Virus record (IMG/VR): IMGVR_UViG_3300036820_000008
Location: 30,580 to 94,579 of that record
Length of the DNA: 64,000 nucleotides
Source: a virus
Strand: one strand, 5' to 3'
This document shows positions 3,702 through 64,000 of this stretch, in pieces. Position 1 is the first letter of the stretch, and each line of letters begins with the position of its first letter. The position numbers were made by a program, and so were the translations under genes. The notes beneath the pieces are model-generated. The model was not told the origin of the DNA and did not search any database. It was given only the letters and a program-made list of their open reading frames with translations.

Positions 3702-3864
3702 CTCTGTAGATCACACGGACCTGAAGATTAGCCTCAGACTTGCCAACGACCTGAATAGCCATCGGATTGTCCGGCAGGATATTACCGTCGATGATTTCAT
3801 GCCTGAGTATTCTTTCCGAGATGTCAGACATGATCATCCTTTTGGTATCAGATAGGCTAGTCAT
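3664..3864 (-). CDS. Hypothetical protein, 66 aa
   Basis: Starts at the ATG overlapping the last codons of the ParB-like gene, with CAGG six bases upstream. The frame is open six codons further upstream, but that would lie wholly inside the ParB-like gene. The protein is soluble with no recognisable motif. It shares 38 bases with the next gene. Confidence 0.6.
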   Translation of the reverse strand: MTSLSDTKRMIMSDISERILRHEIIDGNILPDNPMAIQVVGKSEANLQVRVIYRDVAPYYFQATRA

Positions 3865-4711
3865 GGTTACCTGTCGTCCCATTCACGCCAGCGATACCGT
3901 TTTCTAGTATTGCTGGCGGCAGGAACTGAAGGTCCGGGGAGCCTGCGGTCATAAAGTCGACCTTCGTCGCCTTAGCCTCGTCCTGTCTGATGACTGTCTC
4001 CCAGCAAGCATGGCAAGCACCGGCGAACCTACGGCGCGTACCGTGCTCGCGAGCGTCGCACATCGTCTTGGCTTTGCGTGCCAGGGGATGAGATGGATTA
4101 AACGCATCCGGCTCCCAGCCTATATCGACCGGCTTTTTGCCGGTTTTCTTCCTGTCCTTGGCACGATGGGACTTAACCGCATCGACCGCCTTGTCTACGG
4201 AAAGCTTGCCGGACACGACAAGCCCCCGTGACTGGTCTGACAGTTCGAGCAGGGATAGATATCGGCTGATTGTCGTCTGCGTCACACCTAGTTGCTTCGC
4301 TATGTCCGTCTGGGACATACCGAATTCGTCTCGCATCCTGCCGAATGCATCAGCCTTCTCCAGAGCCGTTAGGTCCAGCTTGTGGATGGAGGTGATTAGT
4401 CCGGTGAATAGTGCGCTCTGAACCGGATCCTCGTCTTCACGGAGATACCGAATGGAGCATTCGAGGGAGCGGACAACGGTCCTGCCTGCGACCCAGCGAC
4501 GATAGCCATCGAGGATCATGAAGTGATCTCCGCCGAATTGCGGTGATGGCGTGACCAGGAGCGGCTGCTCGAGGGCTGGCCTCCCCTGGTCTACCAGGAC
4601 CTTAATGGAGCGTGCGAGATCTGACACGTCCCCGGCCTCGTGGCGTGGGTTGTTTGGGTTGGGATGTATCTGGGCTACAGGAATCATCCTGTGCTGATTC
4701 ATCGTGGCCAT
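3857..4711 (-). CDS. ParB-like DNA-binding protein with C-terminal Cys motif, 284 aa
   Basis: The ParB/Srx-type N-terminal domain runs from about residue 8 (MIPVAQIHPNPNNPR) to residue 90, with the nucleotide-binding-like LDGYRRW motif at 68-73. A helix-turn-helix follows at 132-153 (MSQTDIAKQLGVTQTTISRY). The C-terminal part has C218, C233 and C236 (AGACHACWE), a possible zinc site. The start is the ATG at 4711 with AGGAG just upstream; a 90-codon open extension lacks a ribosome binding site. Known relatives act in plasmid partition or as phage regulators. No ParA is present in the window, so a regulatory or replication role seems more likely than partition. Two inverted repeats sit directly upstream. 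Confidence 0.9.
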   Translation of the reverse strand: MATMNQHRMIPVAQIHPNPNNPRHEAGDVSDLARSIKVLVDQGRPALEQPLLVTPSPQFGGDHFMILDGYRRWVAGRTVVRSLECSIRYLREDEDPVQSALFTGLITSIHKLDLTALEKADAFGRMRDEFGMSQTDIAKQLGVTQTTISRYLSLLELSDQSRGLVVSGKLSVDKAVDAVKSHRAKDRKKTGKKPVDIGWEPDAFNPSHPLARKAKTMCDAREHGTRRRFAGACHACWETVIRQDEAKATKVDFMTAGSPDLQFLPPAILENGIAGVNGTTGNHD

Positions 4712-4750
4712 GTCTTGCTCCTCTGGGGTCGGGGTTGTTTCCCTGTCTGT

Positions 4751-4789
4751 CGTTTTCTGGAAAACGGGGCGGGGTGTTTTGGAGAAAAC
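4751..4789. promoter_or_regulatory. Twin inverted repeats upstream of the ParB-like gene
   Basis: CGTTTTCTGGAAAACG (4751-4766) is a perfect 7+7 inverted repeat. TGTTTTGGAGAAAACC (4774-4789) repeats the same core with arms GTTTT/AAAAC. Centres are 23 bases apart, about two helical turns, 40-78 bases before the ParB-like start. They look like a tandem operator, possibly for autoregulation, or a parS-like site. Confidence 0.55.
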
Positions 4790-4808
4790 CCTACTGTTAC
4801 GGCCGGAA

Positions 4809-5009
4809 TTACCCGGATTCCTTGCGAGAGGATGTGTGCTCTTCGCAGTTACCCTGTTTGTCGGTGGGATAGATGTAAAGGACATTAGCCACGACGGACC
4901 TTCCGTCCTCGGCCTGATACTTAACCTTCTTGTTGTTCTGCACAGATCGCAGAAAACCCATAGCCGTACCATCGGACACATCGAGGGCGATCACGAACAT
5001 CTTGCTCAT
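4809..5009 (-). CDS. Hypothetical protein, 66 aa
   Basis: Start ATG at 5009 overlaps the preceding stop (ATGA, 5006-5009), with GGAG inside the upstream gene. The protein has a beta-strand-like N-terminus (KMFVIALDVSDG) and a polar tail. No family recognised. About 97 bases separate its stop from the ParB-like start. Confidence 0.65.
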   Translation of the reverse strand: MSKMFVIALDVSDGTAMGFLRSVQNNKKVKYQAEDGRSVVANVLYIYPTDKQGNCEEHTSSRKESG

Positions 5010-31165: not shown

Positions 31166-32365
31166 ATGGAGCAGATAAACAAGAAGCTGTTTAACTGGGC
31201 TTCTATTCTCGAGGATGGTGCCCGGGAACAGACGATCCGAACAGCAAGCATGCCGTTCATACACCCGCATGTGGCCGTCATGGCCGATGCTCACTGGGGC
31301 AGAGGAGCAACCGTAGGGTCGGTTATTCCGACGGTCGGGGCGATCATTCCAGCGGCCGTGGGAGTAGATATCGGGTGCGGGATGATAGCGCACAGGACAT
31401 CGCTGACGGCCGAAGATCTGGCCGATCCTGTGATTCGCCGCAGGATCCGCGAGGAGATCGAGCGCTGTATCCCGCTGTCTATGGGGATGTACAATCAGAG
31501 CCTCTGGGATCACAAGACAGAGCGTCGCGTCCAGGAGCTCGAGTCGATATCTGGGGCGGCGGATGCGAATGAGATCGCAGATTGGACCATGCAGATTGGA
31601 TCTCTCGGGTCAGGTAACCACTTCATCGAGATCAGCATCGACGAAGAGGACCGTATCTGGCTGTTTCTGCACTCAGGTTCCAGGGGCGTCGGCAACAAGC
31701 TGGCGATGAGGCACATCAAGATCGCCCAGGAGTTCTGCGAACGGTACTGGATTGATCTTCCTGATCCCGACCTTGCGTATCTGGTCGAGGGGACGCCTGA
31801 GTTCGACAACTATCTGAGGTGTCTCACCTGGGCGCAGCATTTCGCTCTGCTCAATCGGGAGGAGATGATGCACAGGGTAGAGGAATCTGTCTATCACGTC
31901 ACCGGCAGGAACTGGTTCGTCGACGAGCGCGTCAACTGCCACCACAACTACACCGAGCAGATGAGCGGCGAGCTGATCGCCAAGTGGAAGTACCCCAAGG
32001 GGCGTAAGGGGCACATATGGCTCTCCCGTAAGGGTGCCATCGATGCCACCGAAGGCAGGCCGGGGCTGATTCCTGGATCGATGGGGACGCGCTCGTATGT
32101 CGTCGAGGGCAAGGGGAACCTGCTCTCGCTCAACTCGTCTCCGCACGGGGCGGGGCGTGAGTACAGCCGTTCTGCGGCCAAGAAGACGTTCACACGCGCG
32201 CAGCTCGACGAGGCGATGATCGGCATCGAGTGGCGGCATAGCGATGCCTTCCTGGACGAGATTCCACAGGCATACAAGGACATCGACGTAGTGATGAATG
32301 ATGCATCGGATCTAGTCCGCATCAGGCACACTTTGCGTCAGATCATCAATGTCAAAGGAGACTGA
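31166..32365 (+). CDS. rtcB: RtcB-type RNA ligase, 399 aa
   Basis: RtcB joins RNA ends carrying 2',3'-cyclic phosphate (or 3'-phosphate) to 5'-OH using GTP and Mn2+. Signature residues are all present: VDIGCGM (D68, C71), GSLGSGNHFIE (N151, H152), HSGSRGVGN (H169), HHNYTE (H259/H260), and SSPHGAGR with H327, the expected guanylylated His. Length is typical of the short bacterial form. No Archease gene is visible. In a phage the likely job is repair of tRNA or mRNA cut by host anticodon nucleases or toxins. It is embedded in a plus-strand operon of small unknown genes. Confidence 0.95.
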   Translation: MEQINKKLFNWASILEDGAREQTIRTASMPFIHPHVAVMADAHWGRGATVGSVIPTVGAIIPAAVGVDIGCGMIAHRTSLTAEDLADPVIRRRIREEIERCIPLSMGMYNQSLWDHKTERRVQELESISGAADANEIADWTMQIGSLGSGNHFIEISIDEEDRIWLFLHSGSRGVGNKLAMRHIKIAQEFCERYWIDLPDPDLAYLVEGTPEFDNYLRCLTWAQHFALLNREEMMHRVEESVYHVTGRNWFVDERVNCHHNYTEQMSGELIAKWKYPKGRKGHIWLSRKGAIDATEGRPGLIPGSMGTRSYVVEGKGNLLSLNSSPHGAGREYSRSAAKKTFTRAQLDEAMIGIEWRHSDAFLDEIPQAYKDIDVVMNDASDLVRIRHTLRQIINVKGD

Positions 32366-52543: not shown

Positions 52544-55500
52544 ATGCCGAACGAAGTCAATATCCGCATAACTGCAAACGACATGACGAACTCCGCGTTC
52601 GCTGGTGTCATGGGTCGTCTCGCTGCCGTCAAGAAGGCTGCAGATGATGCAGCAGTTAACCGGAACATCAGTTTCGGGATCGGTGATATCCTGGGCAAAT
52701 TGGCAGAAGTAAAGGCAGCGGCTGACGATGCTGCAGCTGGCGATAGACAGATCAGTTTCGGGGTGGGCAATGCCCTGACGAATATCGCAGCACTTGACGC
52801 TGCTGTACAGGGCGTTGCCAATGGCGGAGAGATCAAATTCGGCATTGGTGACGCCCTGGGGGAGATTGAGACCCTGAAGGCTGCTATGTCGGGCATGAGC
52901 TTCGGCAATGTGGATGTCAGTAAGCTAGGCGTCGCACTCTCGGCTCTTCGGTCCAAGCTGCAGTCAATGGGTATCGCTGACCTGGCTGACATCGACGTTC
53001 AGCCGGGTAAGATCATGACGCAGCTCCAGCTGCTTAAGCGTTTGATTCAGCAGGCCGGTATATCAGACGTTCTTGACTTCAACCTTAACTCCGGCCAGTT
53101 GATGGACCAACTGCAGAAACTCGGCAACATAAGTTATGACATCCCCGTTAATTATGATGTCGGACAGATACCGAAGCTGCAGGAAGAATTTACGGTACCG
53201 ATAAAATTCGACACCAGTAATATTCCGAAATTCGGAGAGACAGTCGATCTACCCGTCGACCTGGTGCCGCACAACATAAGCGCCCTTGAACAGATGGTTA
53301 TTGACATGCCCGTCAATTTCGATCTTGGGAAGGTGCCAAAGCTCGGCGAAACCGTTGATCTGCCTGTTACTTTTGTGCCTCAGAATCTTGCTGAACTACG
53401 TGCTGTACTGGACATACCCGTTGATCTTGTCCCCCTGAACCTTGGCGCAATAGAGCAGGCAATAAATCTTCCTGTTGTCCTGGACCTTGCTTCCATAGGA
53501 TCAGGTGCTGCCGAGTCATCCCTTGGCGCGCTAAAGGATGATATATCCCAGGTTGATACGGCCATAAAAAGCGTCGTGTTTGACTCTAAGATAATGGCAT
53601 CTTCCATATTCAGGAATGCCGGCATCCTAACAAACCTAAGCATTGCAGCCGAGGATGTCGCAAAAGCTGAGGTAGAGCTGGGCGGTGCGATCGGAGACGT
53701 CACTGACGACACTGCTGCCCTTGCAAAGGCAGTTAACGAATCTGCAGAATCTGTCAGCAAATTTGGCACTTATGTAGGGGATGCTGCAGCTACCACAGAA
53801 GGCGTCAAGAACGACCTCCCATCTACGACAAAGGCCATACTAGATATGGCCGACTCCCTGCAGCAAGGAGAAAAGTACGCCGGAGGGCTTGGCGATGCAT
53901 TCTTCAATATGGCTCCCCATGTCAATGTGTTCGGGAACTATGTCATAGACCAGCTTATTCCGGCAATGACCCACTTCGGTAGTGAGTCTGCCATGCTAAC
54001 GAACGTCGCGTTGTCCGGGCTCGGCTCGGCACTAGTTGCTGTTGGCGTGAAGATGGGCAAGCTGAATGACAATGTGTCCCTGGGCCTTCCCATGTGGAAG
54101 TCGACCGGCGGATACTGGGGCATTCTGACAGGACACCTTGAGCTTTTCGGAGGCGCGCTAACGCAGATAGGCGTGCCGTCCATAATTGCAACTGCAAGTG
54201 GTTTGCACATTCTTACAGACGCCATCATTGAGGTGTCCGCAACTCTGATCCCGGCTATTGTCGGTCTAGGCGCGTTCGCGGCAGCAGGAGTTGATACTGC
54301 TGACGAGGTATACACGCACTTCCAGGCTCTTGACAAGGTCAATGATGAACTTAGCGGGTCTATGTATCCGCTTACCGGTGCATTTGGCAAGATGAATGAA
54401 GCCGCTCAGCCTGAAGTGTACGTACTTCTTGGAGAGGGTCTCCAGGTAGTCGCCAAGAACTCCGGGCTTCTGCAGAATGTTGCATTGCAGGCTGGCAAGG
54501 CACTGGACGATCTTGGCGCCAGATTTACATACGCCATGAACAATGGTGACGGTTTTGGCGTGTTCATGAAGAACTCTGCATCCGACATAACGGGCTGGGG
54601 AACCCTGATAGGGAATATCGGCGGCATCCTCGGCAACTTCCTGAAGATCATGCCAGGGTATGCAGAGATCATCCTACAGGCTGCAGACGACACCACACAA
54701 TTTGTAGAGTCTCTAACTTCAAACAATATTGTGCAGGCCATAGGTGCCGTAGGCCTCGCGATGCACGGTGCGATCCTGTACATCGGCATCCTTGGAACTG
54801 GATTCGCTAAGCTAGCGTCTGGCATCCTAACTACGGCTGCTGCCGGTGCATACAAGCTAGCTGACGGACTTAGTGCAATTGGCATATCCGGAGCTGACGC
54901 GGCAGTTGTTGGATTCACAGATGCTGCCGAGGGTGCGGCTGCTTTGCCATGGGGATGGATCGGAATAGCAGCAGCTGGCGTCGGCGTCCTAGTATATGAC
55001 CTGATCAATGCTGGCGATGCCATGAACGCATTCGCCTCAGCGGTGCAGAACAAGATAACGAGCACCCCGATTCAGAATCTCGGGGATACAATCAAGAATA
55101 CGCTAGCGACTTCTATCGTAGATGTCCAGAAGGCGACGCTAAACTGGTATACCGTACTCGGAGAGACGCAGTACTATAACACGAGCATCACGAAGACTGC
55201 AGCACAGGCGCAGGCATTTGACAATGCAACGCAGTCCCTGGCCAACTACAAGGCTACCGTAGTTGTTGCCCGGCAGGACCTCGCAACGTACAACTCCAAT
55301 ATGGCATATGCGGCACAGGTCCTAGGCGGCACCAAGGCGGCTCTGGTTGACCTTACCGGGGCTGGCGTCACTAGCGCCCAGATGCTAACGAAAAACAAGC
55401 AGTCTCTGGCTGAAGCAGTCATCGAGGCTGAAGGGTACAATCAGGCGATACGCGCGGTTAGCGATGGCACGGGGCGGTTTGCAGCAGCGCTCAATGCTCT

Positions 55501-58216
55501 GTCTGGACCGGAGCAGTATCTGGGCGACATGCTACACTCGATTCAGTCTATCACGCAGGCTCAGGACAATCTGATCCAGATCGTGACTTCGAGCGAGAAC
55601 GCATTTGACACTTTTGGCCTGGGACAGGCAACTATAGCAAGTAACTTCACTGCTGCGGCAAAGGCTGCCGGTACCGCTACTCACAGTCTTGATGGGGTTA
55701 CGTCGAAGGTCTCTCTGGCCGGAGCGGCGATTGGCGGTCTCAGCCAGGCTAGCCTAACCCTGAACCAGTCGTTCTATTCTCAGGTTACTTCCGGACAGAG
55801 CCTCATCGACTCTTTGGAGCAACAGGAAGCTACTACCACAGACCTGACGACAGCTACTGCGACTATATCTAAGCAGCTCCTCCAGTATGCCGGGAACAAC
55901 ACGGCGGCTCGAGCAACAATTGTCGCGCTGATCAACGATGCGCTCGGACCGAACACCGTTAGCCTGCAGAACCTTAATACATGGGTGAAGAACAACAGTA
56001 CATCGATGCAGGGTCTTGACAGCATCGTAACTAAGGCCACCCTGAATGCCGGCAATCTTGCGAATGTCTTGAAGAGCGATCTCACGCAGCAATTTCAGGC
56101 AGACGTGCTCGCGTCGTCCGGAGCTACCGGAGAACTCAAGAAGTTCACGGATGCAGTTGTAAATGGCGGCGGAGACACAAAAGCATATGAATCTACCAGA
56201 AAGCAACTCATAACAGATCTAGAGAACACAGGTGAGTCTGCAAAGGAAGCCATATCGTACGTAGATGGCCTTACCGACTCCCTCGGCAAGCTGCCAAAGT
56301 CAATTGCGACAAGCATAGACATCGTGGCGGCCGGTAGCGGAGTGCTGACTGCTAGTGGTACGGCAGCTGGCCAGAAGATCAGCGACATGATTGACTTCAA
56401 GGCTGCCGGCGGATCCATCATCGGACCGGGTGGCCCCAAGGCCGATAAGATCCCGATCTGGGCCAGCAATGGCGAATTCATGATGCAGGCCAATGCCGTC
56501 AATAAGTATGGCATAGGATTCATGGACGCCGTTAACTCCGGTAGATATGCAGGTGGCGGATCGATAAACCTCGGTGGAGCCACTAACTGGATGACCGGAG
56601 TGGCCGACGATTGGGCCGCTACGTCCGCAGAGAACTTTATGCAGAAGAGCATAGAGGGATGGAAGACCGTATACCAGAACGCTAATAGGGTAGGCGTTGG
56701 GCCAGGCTCCCCAACCGGTGCCGGGGGTGGCGGTAACCCATCCGCGAACTCCGCGCTAGCTCGGGCTATATTCCCTCAGTACACAAGCGATCCTACGATC
56801 TGGAATGCCTGGAATTACGTCGCGATGCGTGAGTCTGGGTGGAACCAGTACGCTGACAACCCGAGCTCTGGTGCGTATGGCATAGGTCAGGCTCTGCCGT
56901 ATACCAAGATGCCCAAGGCAGCATGGCCTTCGTGGGCCGGAGGATCTAGCGACCCCAGGACACAGATTCTGTGGATGTGGGATTACATGGCGCAGAGGTA
57001 CGGCGGCCCGTATGGCGCTGCGGCCCATGAGAAGGAGTACAACTGGTATGCTACGGGCGGTCTCGTGGAAGCAGCCAAGAAGAAGGTTCTGGCGTTCGGG
57101 GCGTCCACCACTCAGGGCTACGGGGCGACCAAGGGTCATGACTATGTCTCTGACCTTATCGGTCTGGTCGGTGGCAAGTATGACATCATCAACGCCGGAC
57201 TAGCGGGCAACGAGATACTTTCCTCGGCCGTCGGCTTGCAGGGTGACAAGCGATTCACCGGATGGCTTGCCGGCATGAAGGCTGCAATCATCTGGGAGGG
57301 CAACGACGACATAGCGGCCGGTGCTAAGGCTGGCCCTATCGAGAGCGGCTACAGGCAGATGCTAGAGAAGGCTCACGCTGACAACATGAAGGTCGTCGGT
57401 GCTACGCTACAGCCCAGCAACTTCCCGGCGGGCGAAGAGAAGCAGCGCCTAGCCGTAAACCAGTGGATAAGAAGTAGCGGTGCATTCGATGCGGTTGCTG
57501 ACTTCGCTGCGGTACTGCGCGACCCCAAGAATTACGACCATATGGCATCTTGGGTGTACAACAAGGGTCAGGTACATGGTGTCCATCCCGGCGACGCCGG
57601 TTACGCGGCCATCGCTCCTGTGGCCGCTTCCGCCCTGAACAAGGTGCTGGCCACGTCTGTGGCAAAGACCGCAAAGACGACGGCCAAGACGCTGAGCCTT
57701 GAATCAGAGGCCACTCTGAAGAACCACTACAAGGAGTATGCGGCTGGCAATAAGAATGCAATGAGCCCGTTCGAAAAGCATCTCTGGCATCTCCTGCACA
57801 TAGGCGATAGTTGGAGCCAGATAGAGAGCATGTATGGCGGAAAGCCGAAGTCGAGTTCCTCGTCAGGGTCGACGAACCTTGACTATGTGTTCAATCCTGG
57901 CACAGGGAATTTTGCGGATGCAGAGAATGGTGCGCTCATACAGGAGATGTTCCGTGCGGGCGGCGGCAGCATAGTCGGAGTTAACTCCGGCACGTATGAT
58001 AATGGCGGCTGGCTACAGCCTGGGTACACAATGGCCTATAACGGGACTGGGCAGCCGGAACAAGTCATGGGCCCGAACAGCGGTGGCGGCCCGATGACTC
58101 TAGAAGTGGTATCAGGAGGACAAAGTGCATTCGAACAGTTCATGCTCCAGGCTATCAGAAACTGGGTCAGAGTCAAGGGAGGCGGAGACGTCCAACGAGC
58201 ATTCGGAAGTAAGTGA
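52544..58216 (+). CDS. Tape measure protein with lytic transglycosylase and SGNH domains, 1890 aa
   Basis: Length suggests a tail near 280 nm (about 1.5 angstrom per residue). Residues 30-320 hold repeated units (SFGIGDILGKLAEVKAA, ISFGVGNALTNIAALD; FGETVDLPV). Hydrophobic spans lie at about 500-590 and 730-830. A tail-associated motif (PIWASNGEFMMQANAVNKYG) sits near 1305. Residues about 1400-1500 form an SLT-like lysozyme domain with E1430 in MRESGWN and SSGAYGIGQALP. Residues about 1514-1705 form an SGNH/GDSL hydrolase: S1521 in FGASTTQGYG, N1587 in WEGNDD, H1681 in HGVHPGDAGY. The usual catalytic Asp three residues before that His is replaced by H1678. The enzyme domains are placed to act on the cell wall at DNA entry. 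Confidence 0.93.
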   Translation: MPNEVNIRITANDMTNSAFAGVMGRLAAVKKAADDAAVNRNISFGIGDILGKLAEVKAAADDAAAGDRQISFGVGNALTNIAALDAAVQGVANGGEIKFGIGDALGEIETLKAAMSGMSFGNVDVSKLGVALSALRSKLQSMGIADLADIDVQPGKIMTQLQLLKRLIQQAGISDVLDFNLNSGQLMDQLQKLGNISYDIPVNYDVGQIPKLQEEFTVPIKFDTSNIPKFGETVDLPVDLVPHNISALEQMVIDMPVNFDLGKVPKLGETVDLPVTFVPQNLAELRAVLDIPVDLVPLNLGAIEQAINLPVVLDLASIGSGAAESSLGALKDDISQVDTAIKSVVFDSKIMASSIFRNAGILTNLSIAAEDVAKAEVELGGAIGDVTDDTAALAKAVNESAESVSKFGTYVGDAAATTEGVKNDLPSTTKAILDMADSLQQGEKYAGGLGDAFFNMAPHVNVFGNYVIDQLIPAMTHFGSESAMLTNVALSGLGSALVAVGVKMGKLNDNVSLGLPMWKSTGGYWGILTGHLELFGGALTQIGVPSIIATASGLHILTDAIIEVSATLIPAIVGLGAFAAAGVDTADEVYTHFQALDKVNDELSGSMYPLTGAFGKMNEAAQPEVYVLLGEGLQVVAKNSGLLQNVALQAGKALDDLGARFTYAMNNGDGFGVFMKNSASDITGWGTLIGNIGGILGNFLKIMPGYAEIILQAADDTTQFVESLTSNNIVQAIGAVGLAMHGAILYIGILGTGFAKLASGILTTAAAGAYKLADGLSAIGISGADAAVVGFTDAAEGAAALPWGWIGIAAAGVGVLVYDLINAGDAMNAFASAVQNKITSTPIQNLGDTIKNTLATSIVDVQKATLNWYTVLGETQYYNTSITKTAAQAQAFDNATQSLANYKATVVVARQDLATYNSNMAYAAQVLGGTKAALVDLTGAGVTSAQMLTKNKQSLAEAVIEAEGYNQAIRAVSDGTGRFAAALNALSGPEQYLGDMLHSIQSITQAQDNLIQIVTSSENAFDTFGLGQATIASNFTAAAKAAGTATHSLDGVTSKVSLAGAAIGGLSQASLTLNQSFYSQVTSGQSLIDSLEQQEATTTDLTTATATISKQLLQYAGNNTAARATIVALINDALGPNTVSLQNLNTWVKNNSTSMQGLDSIVTKATLNAGNLANVLKSDLTQQFQADVLASSGATGELKKFTDAVVNGGGDTKAYESTRKQLITDLENTGESAKEAISYVDGLTDSLGKLPKSIATSIDIVAAGSGVLTASGTAAGQKISDMIDFKAAGGSIIGPGGPKADKIPIWASNGEFMMQANAVNKYGIGFMDAVNSGRYAGGGSINLGGATNWMTGVADDWAATSAENFMQKSIEGWKTVYQNANRVGVGPGSPTGAGGGGNPSANSALARAIFPQYTSDPTIWNAWNYVAMRESGWNQYADNPSSGAYGIGQALPYTKMPKAAWPSWAGGSSDPRTQILWMWDYMAQRYGGPYGAAAHEKEYNWYATGGLVEAAKKKVLAFGASTTQGYGATKGHDYVSDLIGLVGGKYDIINAGLAGNEILSSAVGLQGDKRFTGWLAGMKAAIIWEGNDDIAAGAKAGPIESGYRQMLEKAHADNMKVVGATLQPSNFPAGEEKQRLAVNQWIRSSGAFDAVADFAAVLRDPKNYDHMASWVYNKGQVHGVHPGDAGYAAIAPVAASALNKVLATSVAKTAKTTAKTLSLESEATLKNHYKEYAAGNKNAMSPFEKHLWHLLHIGDSWSQIESMYGGKPKSSSSSGSTNLDYVFNPGTGNFADAENGALIQEMFRAGGGSIVGVNSGTYDNGGWLQPGYTMAYNGTGQPEQVMGPNSGGGPMTLEVVSGGQSAFEQFMLQAIRNWVRVKGGGDVQRAFGSK

Positions 58217-58328
58217 AGTTGACGCTGAGGGGACAGAGACCGAAGCGCCACAAGTCATCACGTGCAGCGGCGGTATGAGCATGAGGCCGCTCGGCATGCG
58301 CCAGGTCCCGAAGGCACCCAATGCCTAA
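58125..58328 (+). CDS. Acidic small protein overlapping tape-measure end, 67 aa
   Basis: AGGAGG five bases before a GTG (58125-58127) inside the last 92 bases of the tape-measure gene. Acidic (SEVSEVDAEGTETEAPQ) with a short CSGGMSMRPLG end. Its stop overlaps the next start by 8 bases. The ideal ribosome binding site is the main reason to accept it. Confidence 0.55.
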   Translation: MHSNSSCSRLSETGSESREAETSNEHSEVSEVDAEGTETEAPQVITCSGGMSMRPLGMRQVPKAPNA

Positions 58329-58731
58329 TAACCCAACGTACTATGACGGGAGCGTAGAAGACTCCGTCAATGCTGTAACGGCCAATCTCGACAGCGGATA
58401 CCTACGCATCTATAGCGGATCGCAGCCTGCCCTCAATGCCTCACTAACCGGCACCCTCCTCGCGTCCCTGACATTTGGCGCGACCGCTTTCGGCGCAGCT
58501 AGTGCTAGCGGTGGGGTGGTGACGGCAACTGCCAACTCTATCGCCAATGAGACGAATGCTGTGAGTGGTACGGCCGGATACTTTGCTTTGGTCGAGAGTG
58601 ATGGGTCAACAGTTGTAGGGACAGGCACGGTAGGCACCGCTGGTTCCGACTTGAATATGTCTAGCATTGTGTTCTCAAGCGGCGCTACCGTTGCATGCTC
58701 CAGCTTCTCCATCGTCCAGCCTGAGACATAA
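58321..58731 (+). CDS. Minor tail protein, 136 aa
   Basis: Ser/Thr/Ala/Gly-rich beta protein (YLRIYSGSQPALNASLTGTLL), with a FGAASASGGVVTATAN segment typical of small actinophage tail proteins that I recall upstream of tail-fibre genes. No enzyme motif. Confidence 0.7.
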   Translation: MPNNPTYYDGSVEDSVNAVTANLDSGYLRIYSGSQPALNASLTGTLLASLTFGATAFGAASASGGVVTATANSIANETNAVSGTAGYFALVESDGSTVVGTGTVGTAGSDLNMSSIVFSSGATVACSSFSIVQPET

Positions 58732-58743
58732 GAGAAGATCTGA

Positions 58744-61290
58744 ATGGTCACCCTAACCACACCGCAGGCTACTGCAGCACTTGCTGGCGGATACACCCTG
58801 TACGTCAATGAGTATAACTCAAATGCCGCAAACTCGCTGACATCAGATGGGAATCCAGATTTCACGATCGCAACGTCTGGCATCTCCGTTTCGCATAGCG
58901 GTGCACCGGGTGCCTATAATTGCATGTACTTCGGCAATCATTGGGGAACTCTAAGTGCACCGGCAACAACAACAAAACTGCCGATTCAAGTATCGGCAAT
59001 TGCAGGCGGAGGCGTAGCACTAACATCAGTCAACATCACCGCGTCTGGCGTGGCTGGTGGAAGTGCATATGACTGTGCGTATGACATATGGTTCGTCCCC
59101 ACAGAAACTGGAAATCAGAATGGCACAGATTATGAATTGATGATCTGGCTGCAAGACGCCGGAGGAATTCAGCCCGCTGGTTCTGTCGTGGCATCGAACG
59201 TCATGATATCTGGCGTTAGTTGGACGGTGTGGAGTAATGGTGCCACAACCAGCTATGTAGCCACGAACCCCCAGACACAATTGGTTAATGCAGACATCGG
59301 ACTATTCGCGGCCGACGGAGTGGCACGAGGATACATAAGCGATACTTGGTGGCTAATTGATGTCGAGTACGGATTTGAACTTTGGACAAATGGTGCTGGC
59401 CTTAAGTGTAACTCCTTTAGCGTATCTATCGGGGGCGTAACTCCTCCGGTTGGTAGTAACGTAACTGTTGACTTTACCACTAACATTTGCACGATTGATC
59501 CTCTGGCCGTTGGATTTGTCGCCTCCGAATTTGGAACGTCGCAGGGGAGCAATCCTGTTCCAATAGTCGGTAGCGGAGGGAACGCTGCCTGGAAGACCGC
59601 TTTGGCTGCACTCGCTCCGGGGCACGTACGCTGTTCGCTAGCCTGGTATGGCGGTAACCCTAGCTACGGCGCAGGAGGTAGCCCCGGAGAGCAGGGGTCC
59701 GGAGGCAGTACTGCCACCGCCCTGATTGACGCCATCAAATCTATTGGCGCTCTTCCGCTCGTTTCGTTCAACGGCAATACAACTGATAACAATTTTGTGC
59801 CAGCCGACGGTGGCAGCATCGTTCATTTCTTCAATGATGATGGCGGCCAGAATGGCGGCCCGATCCACTACTGGTCTATTGGAAATGAGCCAGACAATAC
59901 CGGAGGCACTGGCCCGTACATGTCAGGAAGTGGGACAGGATCCGCCACCGCGACCCTCGCGGCTATGCGTGCCGCTGACTCTACAATTAACATTGGCATA
60001 CCAGCTGCTGCTTACTGGGATACAGCACTCCTGTCGTGGGCTGGCGAGCAATCTAACGTCGGAACTCTGTCTTACCATGCTTATGACGGTGGCAATACCG
60101 ACGGCACAGGATTCCCAACAGACCCACAAATGTACCAGCATATAAACAAGGACCTGCCGAATTACAAATCAGGCATAAATTACGGCGTTGAGGAATGCAA
60201 CTGGAATCCTTCATATAGCGGACAGACGCAGTTTTACGATTGGCACAACACATGCTTCATTGCAGATAACTGTGGACAAGCTCTAAGCGCCGGTGGACAC
60301 CTGACGATCTATGCTGACGCGAACGAAGCGCTAGGGCTGATGAACGACGGGTCGGGCGGGCAGAACCAGCCCGGATCATTCGGCACCAAGTTTCCGTCGT
60401 ACTGGGGTCTCGGCATATGGACCGGCATGAATGGCCAGTTCAAGCGCTGGGGCACTCACATGGTGTCTGCCAGCACAACATTCGCACAGGGAGTGCTGAC
60501 GGCATTCGCTAGCGATAGTGGCAAGATCGTGATCGTAAACAAGGATGGATCTAATAGCCATCCGCTGACCATAAGCGTAAAGCTAGCGGGCGCGGTCACG
60601 ACCGGCACGTATGTTATCAATGCGACACAGTTCAGCAACCCGACCGGAGCAATCCAGCAGGTTGCTAGTGGATCATTTTCCGGCAGTGTTATCAGCTATA
60701 CCATTCCGGCTGGCACCGCAATCAGCGTAGATGTCACAGCCGGCAGCGGTGGTGGCGGTGGCGGAGGCCAGGGCGGTGGCACTGCCTTTCTCAGGAACGA
60801 CTTTGAGGAAGGTACGAACGGGACTACGATCACCACTGCTAATAGCGCGGGCATAAACGAGAACCCGTTCGACGCTGTCACGATCGGCTCTGGCAATACG
60901 GTAGCGTTCAGCAATACAGAATTCGAAGGAACGCTATCGGGCAAGTTCGCGACTAGCTCAGGCGGGGGCGTCGCGTCGGTAACCTGGTCTACTGCTCTGG
61001 GCGGAACGCTCCCCGCTGTATATGGCCAGGTGTACCTGTTCCTTACGGCCAATCCTACAGAGAATGATGCGATCATAAGGTTCCATTTGAATGGAGCCTC
61101 AACGTGCAGCATACACATCGACACTAGCGGCAAGATAGAGATCTATGACGCTACGTCCACTAGCATCCACACGTTCACTAATGCTGTTCCGCTAGGACAG
61201 TGGGTCCGTATCGAATACTACATAGTGTTCAGTGCAACAACCGGGCAAGTTACTGTCAATATGTACTGCAATCCTAATAGCCCAGGATAG
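58744..61290 (+). CDS. Tail glycoside hydrolase: GH12-like plus clan-A-like domains, 848 aa
   Basis: Residues about 18-232 match the GH12 cellulase/xyloglucanase fold: NHWG, E131 in DYELMIWLQDAGG (expected nucleophile) and E212 in EYGFELWTNG, followed by NSFSVSI. Residues about 245-668 form a second hydrolase with a TIM-barrel pattern: E382 in WSIGNEPDN (acid/base) and E483/E484 in NYGVEECNWN (nucleophile), then a beta-sandwich ending in SYTIPAGTAISVDV. After a Gly-rich linker comes a LamG-like domain (FEEGTNGTTITTANSAG) shared with the last gene of the window. Located among tail-tip genes, so probably a virion depolymerase acting on surface beta-glucan. Confidence 0.85.
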   Translation: MVTLTTPQATAALAGGYTLYVNEYNSNAANSLTSDGNPDFTIATSGISVSHSGAPGAYNCMYFGNHWGTLSAPATTTKLPIQVSAIAGGGVALTSVNITASGVAGGSAYDCAYDIWFVPTETGNQNGTDYELMIWLQDAGGIQPAGSVVASNVMISGVSWTVWSNGATTSYVATNPQTQLVNADIGLFAADGVARGYISDTWWLIDVEYGFELWTNGAGLKCNSFSVSIGGVTPPVGSNVTVDFTTNICTIDPLAVGFVASEFGTSQGSNPVPIVGSGGNAAWKTALAALAPGHVRCSLAWYGGNPSYGAGGSPGEQGSGGSTATALIDAIKSIGALPLVSFNGNTTDNNFVPADGGSIVHFFNDDGGQNGGPIHYWSIGNEPDNTGGTGPYMSGSGTGSATATLAAMRAADSTINIGIPAAAYWDTALLSWAGEQSNVGTLSYHAYDGGNTDGTGFPTDPQMYQHINKDLPNYKSGINYGVEECNWNPSYSGQTQFYDWHNTCFIADNCGQALSAGGHLTIYADANEALGLMNDGSGGQNQPGSFGTKFPSYWGLGIWTGMNGQFKRWGTHMVSASTTFAQGVLTAFASDSGKIVIVNKDGSNSHPLTISVKLAGAVTTGTYVINATQFSNPTGAIQQVASGSFSGSVISYTIPAGTAISVDVTAGSGGGGGGGQGGGTAFLRNDFEEGTNGTTITTANSAGINENPFDAVTIGSGNTVAFSNTEFEGTLSGKFATSSGGGVASVTWSTALGGTLPAVYGQVYLFLTANPTENDAIIRFHLNGASTCSIHIDTSGKIEIYDATSTSIHTFTNAVPLGQWVRIEYYIVFSATTGQVTVNMYCNPNSPG

Positions 61291-61303: not shown

Positions 61304-61900
61304 ATGCCTGATGACCTGAAGTGGCACGCAGCACTACACATCGACAAGTACAGCGAAGAGCAGACCGCTGATATCGCGGCCCTTGAGGGTATCGATATAA
61401 GTGAGGTGACAGGAGAGCACTTTGCCAAGTACGAGATGGTGCCCGCTGACACCCAGGATATCGACGGAAATCTGCTCGTCACGGTCGGCCTCGCTGCCAT
61501 TACGAATGTCCTGATCGGATCAGGACAGGCGATGACTGCGACACGCACCGGAATAGGTGTCGGATCTACGGCCACCACAGCCGTCATCGGAGACACCCAT
61601 CTGGGAGCTGACGGATCAGCCGCCAACGGTACAACGGGTGCCTGGTACAGCGTCGTTGACAGCGCTCCCACCCACGCGAACGGCGTGCTTACGTTCATCT
61701 GCACATTCACGGCTGTCTCTAACAACGCCTTCGCGTGGGCCGAGTGGTGCATCTTTACTGCTACTGGTACGATCACTGCCGGTGACACCCTAGCATCCAC
61801 TGCTACCGGCACGATCATGATCAACCACAAGATACAGTCTCTTGGCACGAAGACATCTGGCGCGGCCTGGGTTCTGACCGCAACGATCACCCTGTCATAG
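61304..61900 (+). CDS. Minor tail protein, 198 aa
   Basis: Starts M-P-D-D-L-K-W with AAGGA upstream. The N-terminal part (DKYSEEQTADIAALEGID) is followed by a beta-rich domain ending in SGAAWVLTATITLS. I recall similar proteins beside tail hydrolases in actinophages. No catalytic motif seen. Confidence 0.72.
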   Translation: MPDDLKWHAALHIDKYSEEQTADIAALEGIDISEVTGEHFAKYEMVPADTQDIDGNLLVTVGLAAITNVLIGSGQAMTATRTGIGVGSTATTAVIGDTHLGADGSAANGTTGAWYSVVDSAPTHANGVLTFICTFTAVSNNAFAWAEWCIFTATGTITAGDTLASTATGTIMINHKIQSLGTKTSGAAWVLTATITLS

Positions 61901-61925: not shown

Positions 61926-64000
61926 ATGACACTTCTAGTCCAGAGCTTCGATGGCGGCACCGCCACTAATGGTACCACCCTGACCACCACCAATCTTGGC
62001 GGTGCTGGCCAGAACGAATTTAACGTGGTGACCATTGGCTCTACTGCAGCGGCAGTTGCTAGTAGCACCGAGGCTCACTCTGGCACGCTCTCTGGCAAGT
62101 TCACGACCGGTGCGACGTCAGGTGCATCGTATGTCGCATGGACAACATCACTCGGGTCCAACGGAACCGTCTATGGCCGTGCGTACGTATATCTGACTGC
62201 CAATCCGGTAGCGGATACGAACATAATTTATTTCGCTCTGTCCGGTACATTTGGCGGTGGCATCATGATCGCCTCCTCCGGACAGCTCCGAATCCAGAAT
62301 GTTGCATTCGGTGAGGTTAGCGGCGGCCCGACAATGCCGCTGAATGCGTGGTTCCGCCTAGAGTGGGAAGTTGTCTGTGGAACTGCAGGATCCGCTTCAT
62401 GCACGGTAAACTACTATGCAAGCCCTGACTCTGCAACCATAACGAATACCGTACAGGACACAACCGGCGGATACGGTTCTGCCGGAGACATCAACACCGT
62501 AGAGTTCGGGTGGACGGCTAGCAACATAAGTCAGCCTGCCATGTACCTGGACGATGTTGGTGTCTCTACGACAGGATTCCTTGGGCCAACAGTCACCGCT
62601 ATATCCGGCGCTGATACTGGTGGTGGCGCAGACAATGCAACGCTTGCAGCCACGTTGTCGGATAATGACACCGGATCTGGCGTTGATAGCGCTACCGTTG
62701 TAGCTCCTGTGTCTGACTCTGACACGGGCAGCGGTGCTGATAATGCCATTGTGTCCATACCGATATCCGGTGCCGATACAGGTAGTGGCGCAGATACAGC
62801 GTCTGTGACATCCATATCCGTATCGGCTGCGGACACGGGATCTGGCGCTGACTTGGCTGTTGTGTCGACTCCGATGTCGACGCTTCAGGACAACTTTGAG
62901 ACAGACGACCTTGCGACGTTGTGGGCCGGTACTTACGGTAATGTAGATGTATCTGACAATCAGTGTTCCATTGAGTGCGACGTAGATTACGACTCTGCCC
63001 TTTACAGCACTAACACGTACTTCCTGACCGGCTCCTATCTCTATGCACAGGTGATCCCGTATAATGCGGCTTCTGCCCAGACTTTCTTCTTTGCTGCAGC
63101 TAGCGATGGAGACGGTCCGGGATGGATGTACAGTGCAGGAGAGCTATCTGCAATACTTACGCAGGGTGGCGTTCAGGGAACGATTGGTTTTGCAAGCTAC
63201 AATCCGGTTAATGATCTGTGGTTGAGGATACGAGAGTCCTCTGGGACGATATACTGGGACGTCGCTCCGGATGGTGTGACTTGGACCAATCTTTACTCGT
63301 CCACGTATAGCATAGATGTGAGTGCCCTATACGCAGGATGTAGTGCTGGCGACTATGGGTCAGATCCTCCTGGGTTCAGCTATATAACTGACTTCAATGT
63401 CCCGATGCCAATACCGCCTGCAGTAGATTTCGGAGCCGGTGGTGATTGGGCAACTGTTGCAGGTTCTGTCACCACAACTGAGTCGTATACATCTGCAGCC
63501 ACAGAGAATTTCAGCACAGGATTTAACTCAGTAGACTTTGGCTGGACGAACGGCAATGCTAGCCAGCCAGCAATGTATCTCGATAATCTTGAGATGTCCA
63601 CCTCTGGATTTGTCGGGCCTGTCACCCTGATAACGTCAGTCGGTTCTCTGGCTATGGGGCAGCTTGGATACGGTGACGAAAGTTCTGTGTCCACAGGTAG
63701 CGATAGCGTTACATCGCATGGATCCCTAGCCATGCAATCGCTCGCAATGGCAGGAATTGCGTATGAGCCGGTGCCATACTTCCCTGCTCAAACTCTTCTT
63801 CCGATAAAGGTGGAGCTCCTACTTAACGGTACCTGGACCGATATCAGTTCTTATGTGTACCAGCGTGATGACATCTCTATCACGCGCGGGCGTCCGGACG
63901 AAACCCAGACGGTTACCGGTAACCCACAGCAGCAGACCATGACGCTGAACAATAGGAATGGAACATTCTCTCCCAACAACACGAACAGCCCATTCTATCC
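61926..64000 (+). CDS. Tail protein with LamG-like modules and repeats, N-terminal 691 aa (cut by edge)
   Basis: GAGGAGG before the ATG; the frame is open to the window end. Residues 1-210 form a LamG-like module close to the C-terminal domain of the preceding hydrolase (GTLSGKF, YLTANP). Residues about 220-315 hold five degenerate repeats of 18-19 residues with core DTGSGADNA. A second beta-sandwich (320-485) and a repeat of the FGWT-x-x-N-x-SQPAMYLD motif follow. The last visible part (ISITRGRPDE, LNNRNGTFSPNN) is the conserved signature of a distal siphovirus minor tail protein. Probably a tail-tip adhesin. Confidence 0.8.
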   Translation, partial: MTLLVQSFDGGTATNGTTLTTTNLGGAGQNEFNVVTIGSTAAAVASSTEAHSGTLSGKFTTGATSGASYVAWTTSLGSNGTVYGRAYVYLTANPVADTNIIYFALSGTFGGGIMIASSGQLRIQNVAFGEVSGGPTMPLNAWFRLEWEVVCGTAGSASCTVNYYASPDSATITNTVQDTTGGYGSAGDINTVEFGWTASNISQPAMYLDDVGVSTTGFLGPTVTAISGADTGGGADNATLAATLSDNDTGSGVDSATVVAPVSDSDTGSGADNAIVSIPISGADTGSGADTASVTSISVSAADTGSGADLAVVSTPMSTLQDNFETDDLATLWAGTYGNVDVSDNQCSIECDVDYDSALYSTNTYFLTGSYLYAQVIPYNAASAQTFFFAAASDGDGPGWMYSAGELSAILTQGGVQGTIGFASYNPVNDLWLRIRESSGTIYWDVAPDGVTWTNLYSSTYSIDVSALYAGCSAGDYGSDPPGFSYITDFNVPMPIPPAVDFGAGGDWATVAGSVTTTESYTSAATENFSTGFNSVDFGWTNGNASQPAMYLDNLEMSTSGFVGPVTLITSVGSLAMGQLGYGDESSVSTGSDSVTSHGSLAMQSLAMAGIAYEPVPYFPAQTLLPIKVELLLNGTWTDISSYVYQRDDISITRGRPDETQTVTGNPQQQTMTLNNRNGTFSPNNTNSPFY

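Follow-up and report, generated by a model that had tools for sequence, protein, structure and literature searches.

Enzymes encoded by a phage and directed at a cellulose coat on the surface of its bacterial host have a clear precedent in the Erwinia amylovora phage S6, which needs host cellulose as its first receptor and which encodes the proteins gp094, of the GH48 family, and gp095, of the GH5 family (PMC9544554; Knecht et al. 2022). The kind of system to which the locus described here would belong is, therefore, already known, and the claim of a first-pass annotation of this locus that a cellulase-like depolymerase would be new is too strong, given the GH5 and GH48 enzymes of S6. A candidate maker of the glucan that may be the target here is the Streptomyces cellulose synthase CslA/GlxA, of which GlxA constitutes one half; in vitro, the S. 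lividans CslA-GlxA enzyme produces cellulose (PMC11022532). This synthase would be a possible target pathway and not a component of the phage itself. Further points of reference are the secreted GH12 endoglucanases of actinobacteria and several glycoside hydrolase families of clan GH-A.

The window analyzed here is a 64,000-nucleotide stretch (positions 30580-94579 of a 94,579-base IMG/VR virus record) that reaches the end of the contig. It encodes an 848-residue protein, which we consider with moderate confidence to be a depolymerase carried at the tail tip of the virion of a soil phage that infects actinobacteria; its GH12 domain would cleave a host beta-1,4-glucan, and its clan GH-A domain would act on a second glycan.

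The hydrolase gene and its setting in the tail block

The gene is a single open frame with an ATG start and no internal stops, placed between the tape-measure gene and a tail-tip gene with a phrog_5313 region. The features of this neighborhood are as follows.

52544..58216, plus strand: tape-measure protein of 1890 aa (phrog_12661, phrog_4197), with transglycosylase-like and GDSL/SGNH hydrolase domains
58321..58731, plus strand: virion structural protein of 136 aa (phrog_3758, 4.3e-22), 42-50% identical to its counterparts in relatives
58744..61290, plus strand: predicted tail-tip protein of 848 aa, with a GH12 domain, a putative clan GH-A hydrolase domain, and a truncated Cip1-like jelly roll, and without a visible signal peptide
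61304..61900, plus strand: 198-aa protein (phrog_23653, 1e-26), encoded downstream of the hydrolase gene and ahead of that for the tail-tip protein
61926..64000, plus strand: tail-tip protein with a full Cip1-like domain first and then the phrog_5313 region (1.5e-24), running off the contig end

The tape-measure protein has its transglycosylase-like domain at about residues 1420-1502 and its GDSL/SGNH hydrolase domain at residues 1517-1689 (PF13472, 6.5e-14), so that the tail as a whole has at least four predicted enzyme domains.

Homologues of the clan GH-A domain are present at four distinct viral loci in IMG/VR (L007, L092, L095, and L096; 54-63% identity) and in a prophage of Trebonia kvetii (L107), where the gene encodes 1008 aa with a 53% identical domain. 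In L007, L092, and L095, the domain forms the N-terminus of a protein of 2382-2513 aa that ends in phrog_5313, and in these three loci, as in the prophage, the cassette comes after the tape measure. A homologue of the 136-aa virion structural protein stands before the clan GH-A gene in the relatives. The order in the prophage is a 1028-aa protein, which matches the phage tape measure (27% identity over 722 aa, E 3e-29), then the clan GH-A protein, and then a phrog_5313 protein, all in a region of 59-65% GC set in a chromosome of roughly 70% GC. The position of the gene and the covalent fusion to the tail-tip protein in the viral relatives make a virion location probable, and with it the earlier placement of the 848-residue protein in the tail. 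We infer that the protein is present in the virion of this phage, that it is enzymatically active, and that its target is a host glucan.

In Thermobifida phage P1312, as in Streptomyces phage Dagobah, the phrog_5313-type tail gene follows the tape-measure position with no other gene in between; the cassette is thus an insertion at the tape-measure/tail-tip junction. Over the stretches compared, the similarity of the window to the Trebonia prophage and the viral relatives is confined to the tape-measure, 136-aa, hydrolase, and jelly-roll parts; hence, the module seems to be passed among phages that are otherwise unlike one another. Elsewhere, the window encodes a tRNA splicing ligase, RtcB (31166-32365; phrog_1075, 1.8e-134), although no tRNA genes were found within its 64,000 nucleotides, and a ParB-like partition protein (3857-4981; phrog_6218, 8e-23), which possibly reflects a plasmid-like prophage state.

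The GH12 domain

Three features define the N-terminal part of the protein.

58774..59439, plus strand: GH12 domain, residues 11-232
59134..59136, plus strand: E131, GH12 catalytic Glu in the motif ELMIWL
59377..59379, plus strand: E212, GH12 catalytic Glu in the motif GFELW

The domain matches the PF01670 profile with 80.3 bits (E 2.9e-22) against a curated cutoff of 27 bits, and its nearest solved structure by sequence is the GH12 domain of Acidothermus GuxA (7mks, E 1.6e-36, over residues 11-230). In a full-length model built from a 46-row alignment, the GH12 part has a pLDDT of about 90, and Foldseek ranks GH12 structures at the top with TM scores of 0.85-0.90 (7mkr, E 4.1e-22, TM 0.85 on target). 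Both glutamates are invariant in the alignment; thus, the earlier recognition of a GH12 domain with the catalytic pair E131/E212 holds at the level of profile, residue, and predicted fold. Among 41 bacterial GH12 sequences, 45 positions are conserved in 90% or more of the set, and the phage version keeps 37 of these. Taken together, these observations suggest that the cellulase domain is apparently intact, with a predicted retaining beta-glucanase activity.

Three of the eight lost positions are the cysteines C31, C65, and C70, which are present in 97-100% of the bacterial GH12 domains and replaced in the phage; the second Cys motif was present in each of the 37 bacterial GH12 open reading frames checked. 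The same 37 frames have at least 40 residues upstream of the domain, and most of these frames have a secretion-type leader, whereas the phage domain starts at about residue 11 without any such leader. The missing leader and the replaced cysteines fit folding in the cytoplasm. Further, the GC3 of the phage domain is 0.47, against a bacterial GH12 mean of 0.93, which argues for long residence, and its best identity to any bacterial GH12 found does not exceed 51%. In our reading, the enzyme has resided in the phage for a long time and has been remodeled to fold in the cytoplasm, which would illustrate how a phage can adapt a secreted enzyme of its host for use on the virion.

These properties bear on two other accounts of the gene. 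As the fusion is present in a single contig and no second phage has it, GH12 could have been joined to the phage gene by an error of metagenome assembly; the one uninterrupted frame, the lost cysteines, the codon composition, and the divergence speak against such a chimera, and we give it a negligible probability. In soil viromes, glycoside hydrolases are often interpreted as auxiliary metabolic enzymes, and on that common interpretation the protein would be a cellulase that feeds the host and forms no part of the virion. We find this very improbable for a protein with no visible signal peptide, without the conserved cysteines, and encoded within the tail block, with relatives in which the accompanying clan GH-A domain is fused to a tail-tip protein. 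The case is also a warning that cellulases reported from soil viruses may serve entry into the host, as opposed to the carbon cycle.

A related alternative accepts the virion location and proposes that GH12, perhaps with the clan GH-A domain, acts on plant or soil polysaccharides such as litter cellulose or xyloglucan, or anchors the virion to them, so as to localize it in a niche that cellulolytic hosts inhabit. Several of the GH12 structures matched by Foldseek are xyloglucanases, and the bacterial relatives of the domain are secreted enzymes of soil-type actinobacteria that are often longer and have further domains. However, the domain forms part of a tail-tip gene, the tail tip being the usual site of receptor-directed enzymes, the relatives link the clan GH-A domain covalently to the tail-tip protein, and litter cellulose lacks host specificity. 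Hence, we regard this alternative as unlikely and favor an entry enzyme directed at the host envelope.

GH12 appears to be rare among phages. A tblastn search with the domain recovered none in 50,697 phage records, to an E value of 10, and degenerate motif scans of IMG/VR, which miss divergent copies, recovered none either. No GH12-like viral protein was among the best matches in BFVD, where the top hits had low, uninformative TM scores, and the literature on GH12 together with viral auxiliary genes yielded no clear phage GH12; a match from the Moringa phageome was set aside on finding that its text concerns GH120. In these searches, GH12 was seen in one contig only, and no relative with the clan GH-A module has it. 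Within the collections searched, and as far as we know, what is new in this phage is the GH12 domain, its fusion to a second enzyme, and a Gram-positive setting.

The predicted clan GH-A domain and the C-terminal jelly roll

The remainder of the protein comprises the following features.

59452..60747, plus strand: predicted clan GH-A hydrolase domain with a C-terminal beta-sandwich, residues 237-668
59887..59889, plus strand: E382 in the motif GNE, predicted acid/base
60193..60195, plus strand: E484, predicted nucleophile
60787..61287, plus strand: Cip1-like beta jelly roll, residues 682-848, truncated at its C-terminus and common to the next tail gene and the viral relatives

Single-sequence searches of Pfam and PDB with the clan GH-A domain gave nothing usable and no match to a glycoside hydrolase family. 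A profile including its homologues, when compared with PDB, recovered the barrels of GH51 (5e-12), GH39 (2.7e-11), and GH79 (8e-8), as well as the C-terminal sandwich of GH44 (5e-13), and the Pfam GH39 model (PF01229) matches 13 of the 19 aligned homologues, at best with 3.3e-7. As the PDB matches spread over four families, we call residues 237-668 a predicted clan GH-A hydrolase that we leave unassigned to a family, with GH39, GH51, GH44, and GH79 as its near neighbors. In the 19-row alignment, E382, which aligns with the GNE of GH51, is invariant together with E484, N486, H445, Y447, and R296. The first-pass annotation had proposed a second hydrolase with E382 and E483/E484 as its catalytic pair; the clan type, E382, and E484 are upheld by the profiles and the alignment, but E483 is not conserved in the cellular homologues, which leaves E484 as the second catalytic residue. 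A model of the domain alone, from five sequences, has a pLDDT of 43.6, and in the full-length model the barrel part, at about 40-65, displays alternating strands and helices at low confidence.

In Trebonia kvetii, a genome search recovered two homologues of this domain, that of the prophage (E 2.9e-182) and a cellular one (E 1.1e-24), and secreted cellular homologues were found in about 18 further genomes of Streptosporangiales. These secreted proteins (L109:4542-6029 and L111-L127) are mostly of about 590-600 aa, have an additional C-terminal domain that is PA14-like by eye, and are only weakly similar to Pfam GH39; they may represent a glycoside hydrolase family that has not yet been assigned.

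The wider distribution of the clan GH-A domain, present in all the relatives and the Trebonia prophage when GH12 is found in this phage only, raises the possibility that it is the working depolymerase, acting on a host exopolysaccharide other than cellulose, with GH12 as a recent accessory or a domain that only binds. Its nearest profiles likewise include enzymes with noncellulosic substrates. Nevertheless, the retention of both catalytic glutamates and so many conserved positions in GH12, despite the length of its branch (see below), exceeds what binding would need. We consider this alternative somewhat unlikely, though a serious one, and continue to favor a reading in which both domains are active.

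The C-terminal domain had been described as LamG-like. No LamG profile matched in nine members of the family; instead, the domain looks Cip1-like, on the basis of subthreshold matches (PF21340, 2.8e-5, on the paralogue at 61926; PDB 3zyp, E 0.044). The copy in the 848-residue protein is without the last 45-50 or so residues of those in the relatives, and it could be a decaying module. Genes of Microbacterium phages labeled "glycosylhydrolase" were rejected as relatives, since the match is to the Cip1-like jelly roll only; the neighboring protein with that label is of a different sequence.

Probable host, possible target glucan, and comparison with known systems

The terminase of the phage is nearest to those of Thermobifida phage P1312 (57%) and Streptomyces phage Dagobah (51%). 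In a tree of GH12 domains, the phage version groups, on a long branch (1.12) and with support of 95/92, with those of Treboniaceae, Streptosporangiaceae, and Actinospicaceae, which shows that the domain originated in actinobacteria. This grouping and the cassette in the Trebonia prophage together favor such a host over Streptomyces, which had been assumed at first; hence, the host is probably of the Treboniaceae/Streptosporangiales type.

In Trebonia kvetii, a GlxA orthologue (4unm, E 8e-164) adjoins a GT2 gene (L139:4980-9007), and this pair is thus found outside Streptomyces as well. Across the class, 14 of 198 genomes gave a GlxA match. Six more genomes that encode close GH12 relatives were searched for GlxA and yielded no hit, and among nine genomes examined it was seen only in Trebonia; these absences are uncertain, as the marker PF09118 missed two Streptomyces genomes and its replacement, PF21110, missed both too. 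The phage of the Trebonia lysogen is without GH12, and the GlxA of its host therefore has no direct bearing on the target of GH12. The earlier suggestion of a CslA/GlxA glucan has nonetheless been strengthened, in that cellulose is now established as what CslA/GlxA makes (PMC11022532) and that the lysogen of a relative encodes GlxA by a GT2 gene. A cellulose-like host coat is, on this basis, a plausible candidate target.

Based on the above, we postulate that the ancestral part of the protein would have been a clan GH-A hydrolase with Cip1-like jelly rolls on its C-terminal side, situated at the tape-measure/tail-tip junction. A GH12 beta-1,4-glucanase, acquired from a host of the Treboniaceae/Streptosporangiales type, would have been added at its N-terminus, with the module being carried here as a separate protein. 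At the time of adsorption, GH12 would attach to a beta-1,4-glucan in the host envelope and cleave it; the most likely candidate for this glucan is cellulose from a CslA/GlxA-type synthase. The clan GH-A domain would attack a second glycan, or one linked to the first, and thereby open the way for the tail.

Little has been established about the receptors of phages that infect filamentous actinobacteria. One more specific possibility, which we advance tentatively and with some doubt, is that the cellulose coat produced by CslA/GlxA in these bacteria is the entry receptor of a Gram-positive phage and is cut by the tail-tip GH12. If true, this would, to our knowledge, extend such receptor systems beyond Gram-negative hosts for the first time and provide the first case of a GH12 carried by a virion. 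A cellulase at the tail tip would in itself connect phage entry with the cellulose coat in a concrete way that can be tested.

Among the known systems, S6 resembles this phage in encoding cellulases: it directs two glycoside hydrolase families against a bacterial cellulose coat, with multidomain proteins in its adsorption region. However, its GH5 and GH48 enzymes are encoded by separate genes, whereas GH12 is here fused to a clan GH-A domain in one protein; S6 is also a podophage of a Gram-negative host with genetic and biochemical proof. The secreted GH12 endoglucanases of actinobacteria, typified by Acidothermus GuxA (7mkr/7mks), share the fold, the catalytic glutamate pair, and the 37 conserved positions with the phage form, which differs in having neither the leader nor the three conserved cysteines and in being fused to a tail-type module. 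With GH39, GH51, GH79, and GH44, the second domain shares an alignable GNE acid/base and a later glutamate nucleophile, and with GH44 also the C-terminal beta-sandwich, but unlike these families it passes no Pfam family threshold on its own. The architecture is also like that of the IMG/VR relatives and the Trebonia prophage, which have clan GH-A domains 53-63% identical to that described here along with Cip1-like jelly rolls; what sets the present phage apart from all of them is the GH12 domain, and it differs further from L007, L092, and L095 in that there the clan GH-A domain is fused to the tail-tip protein.
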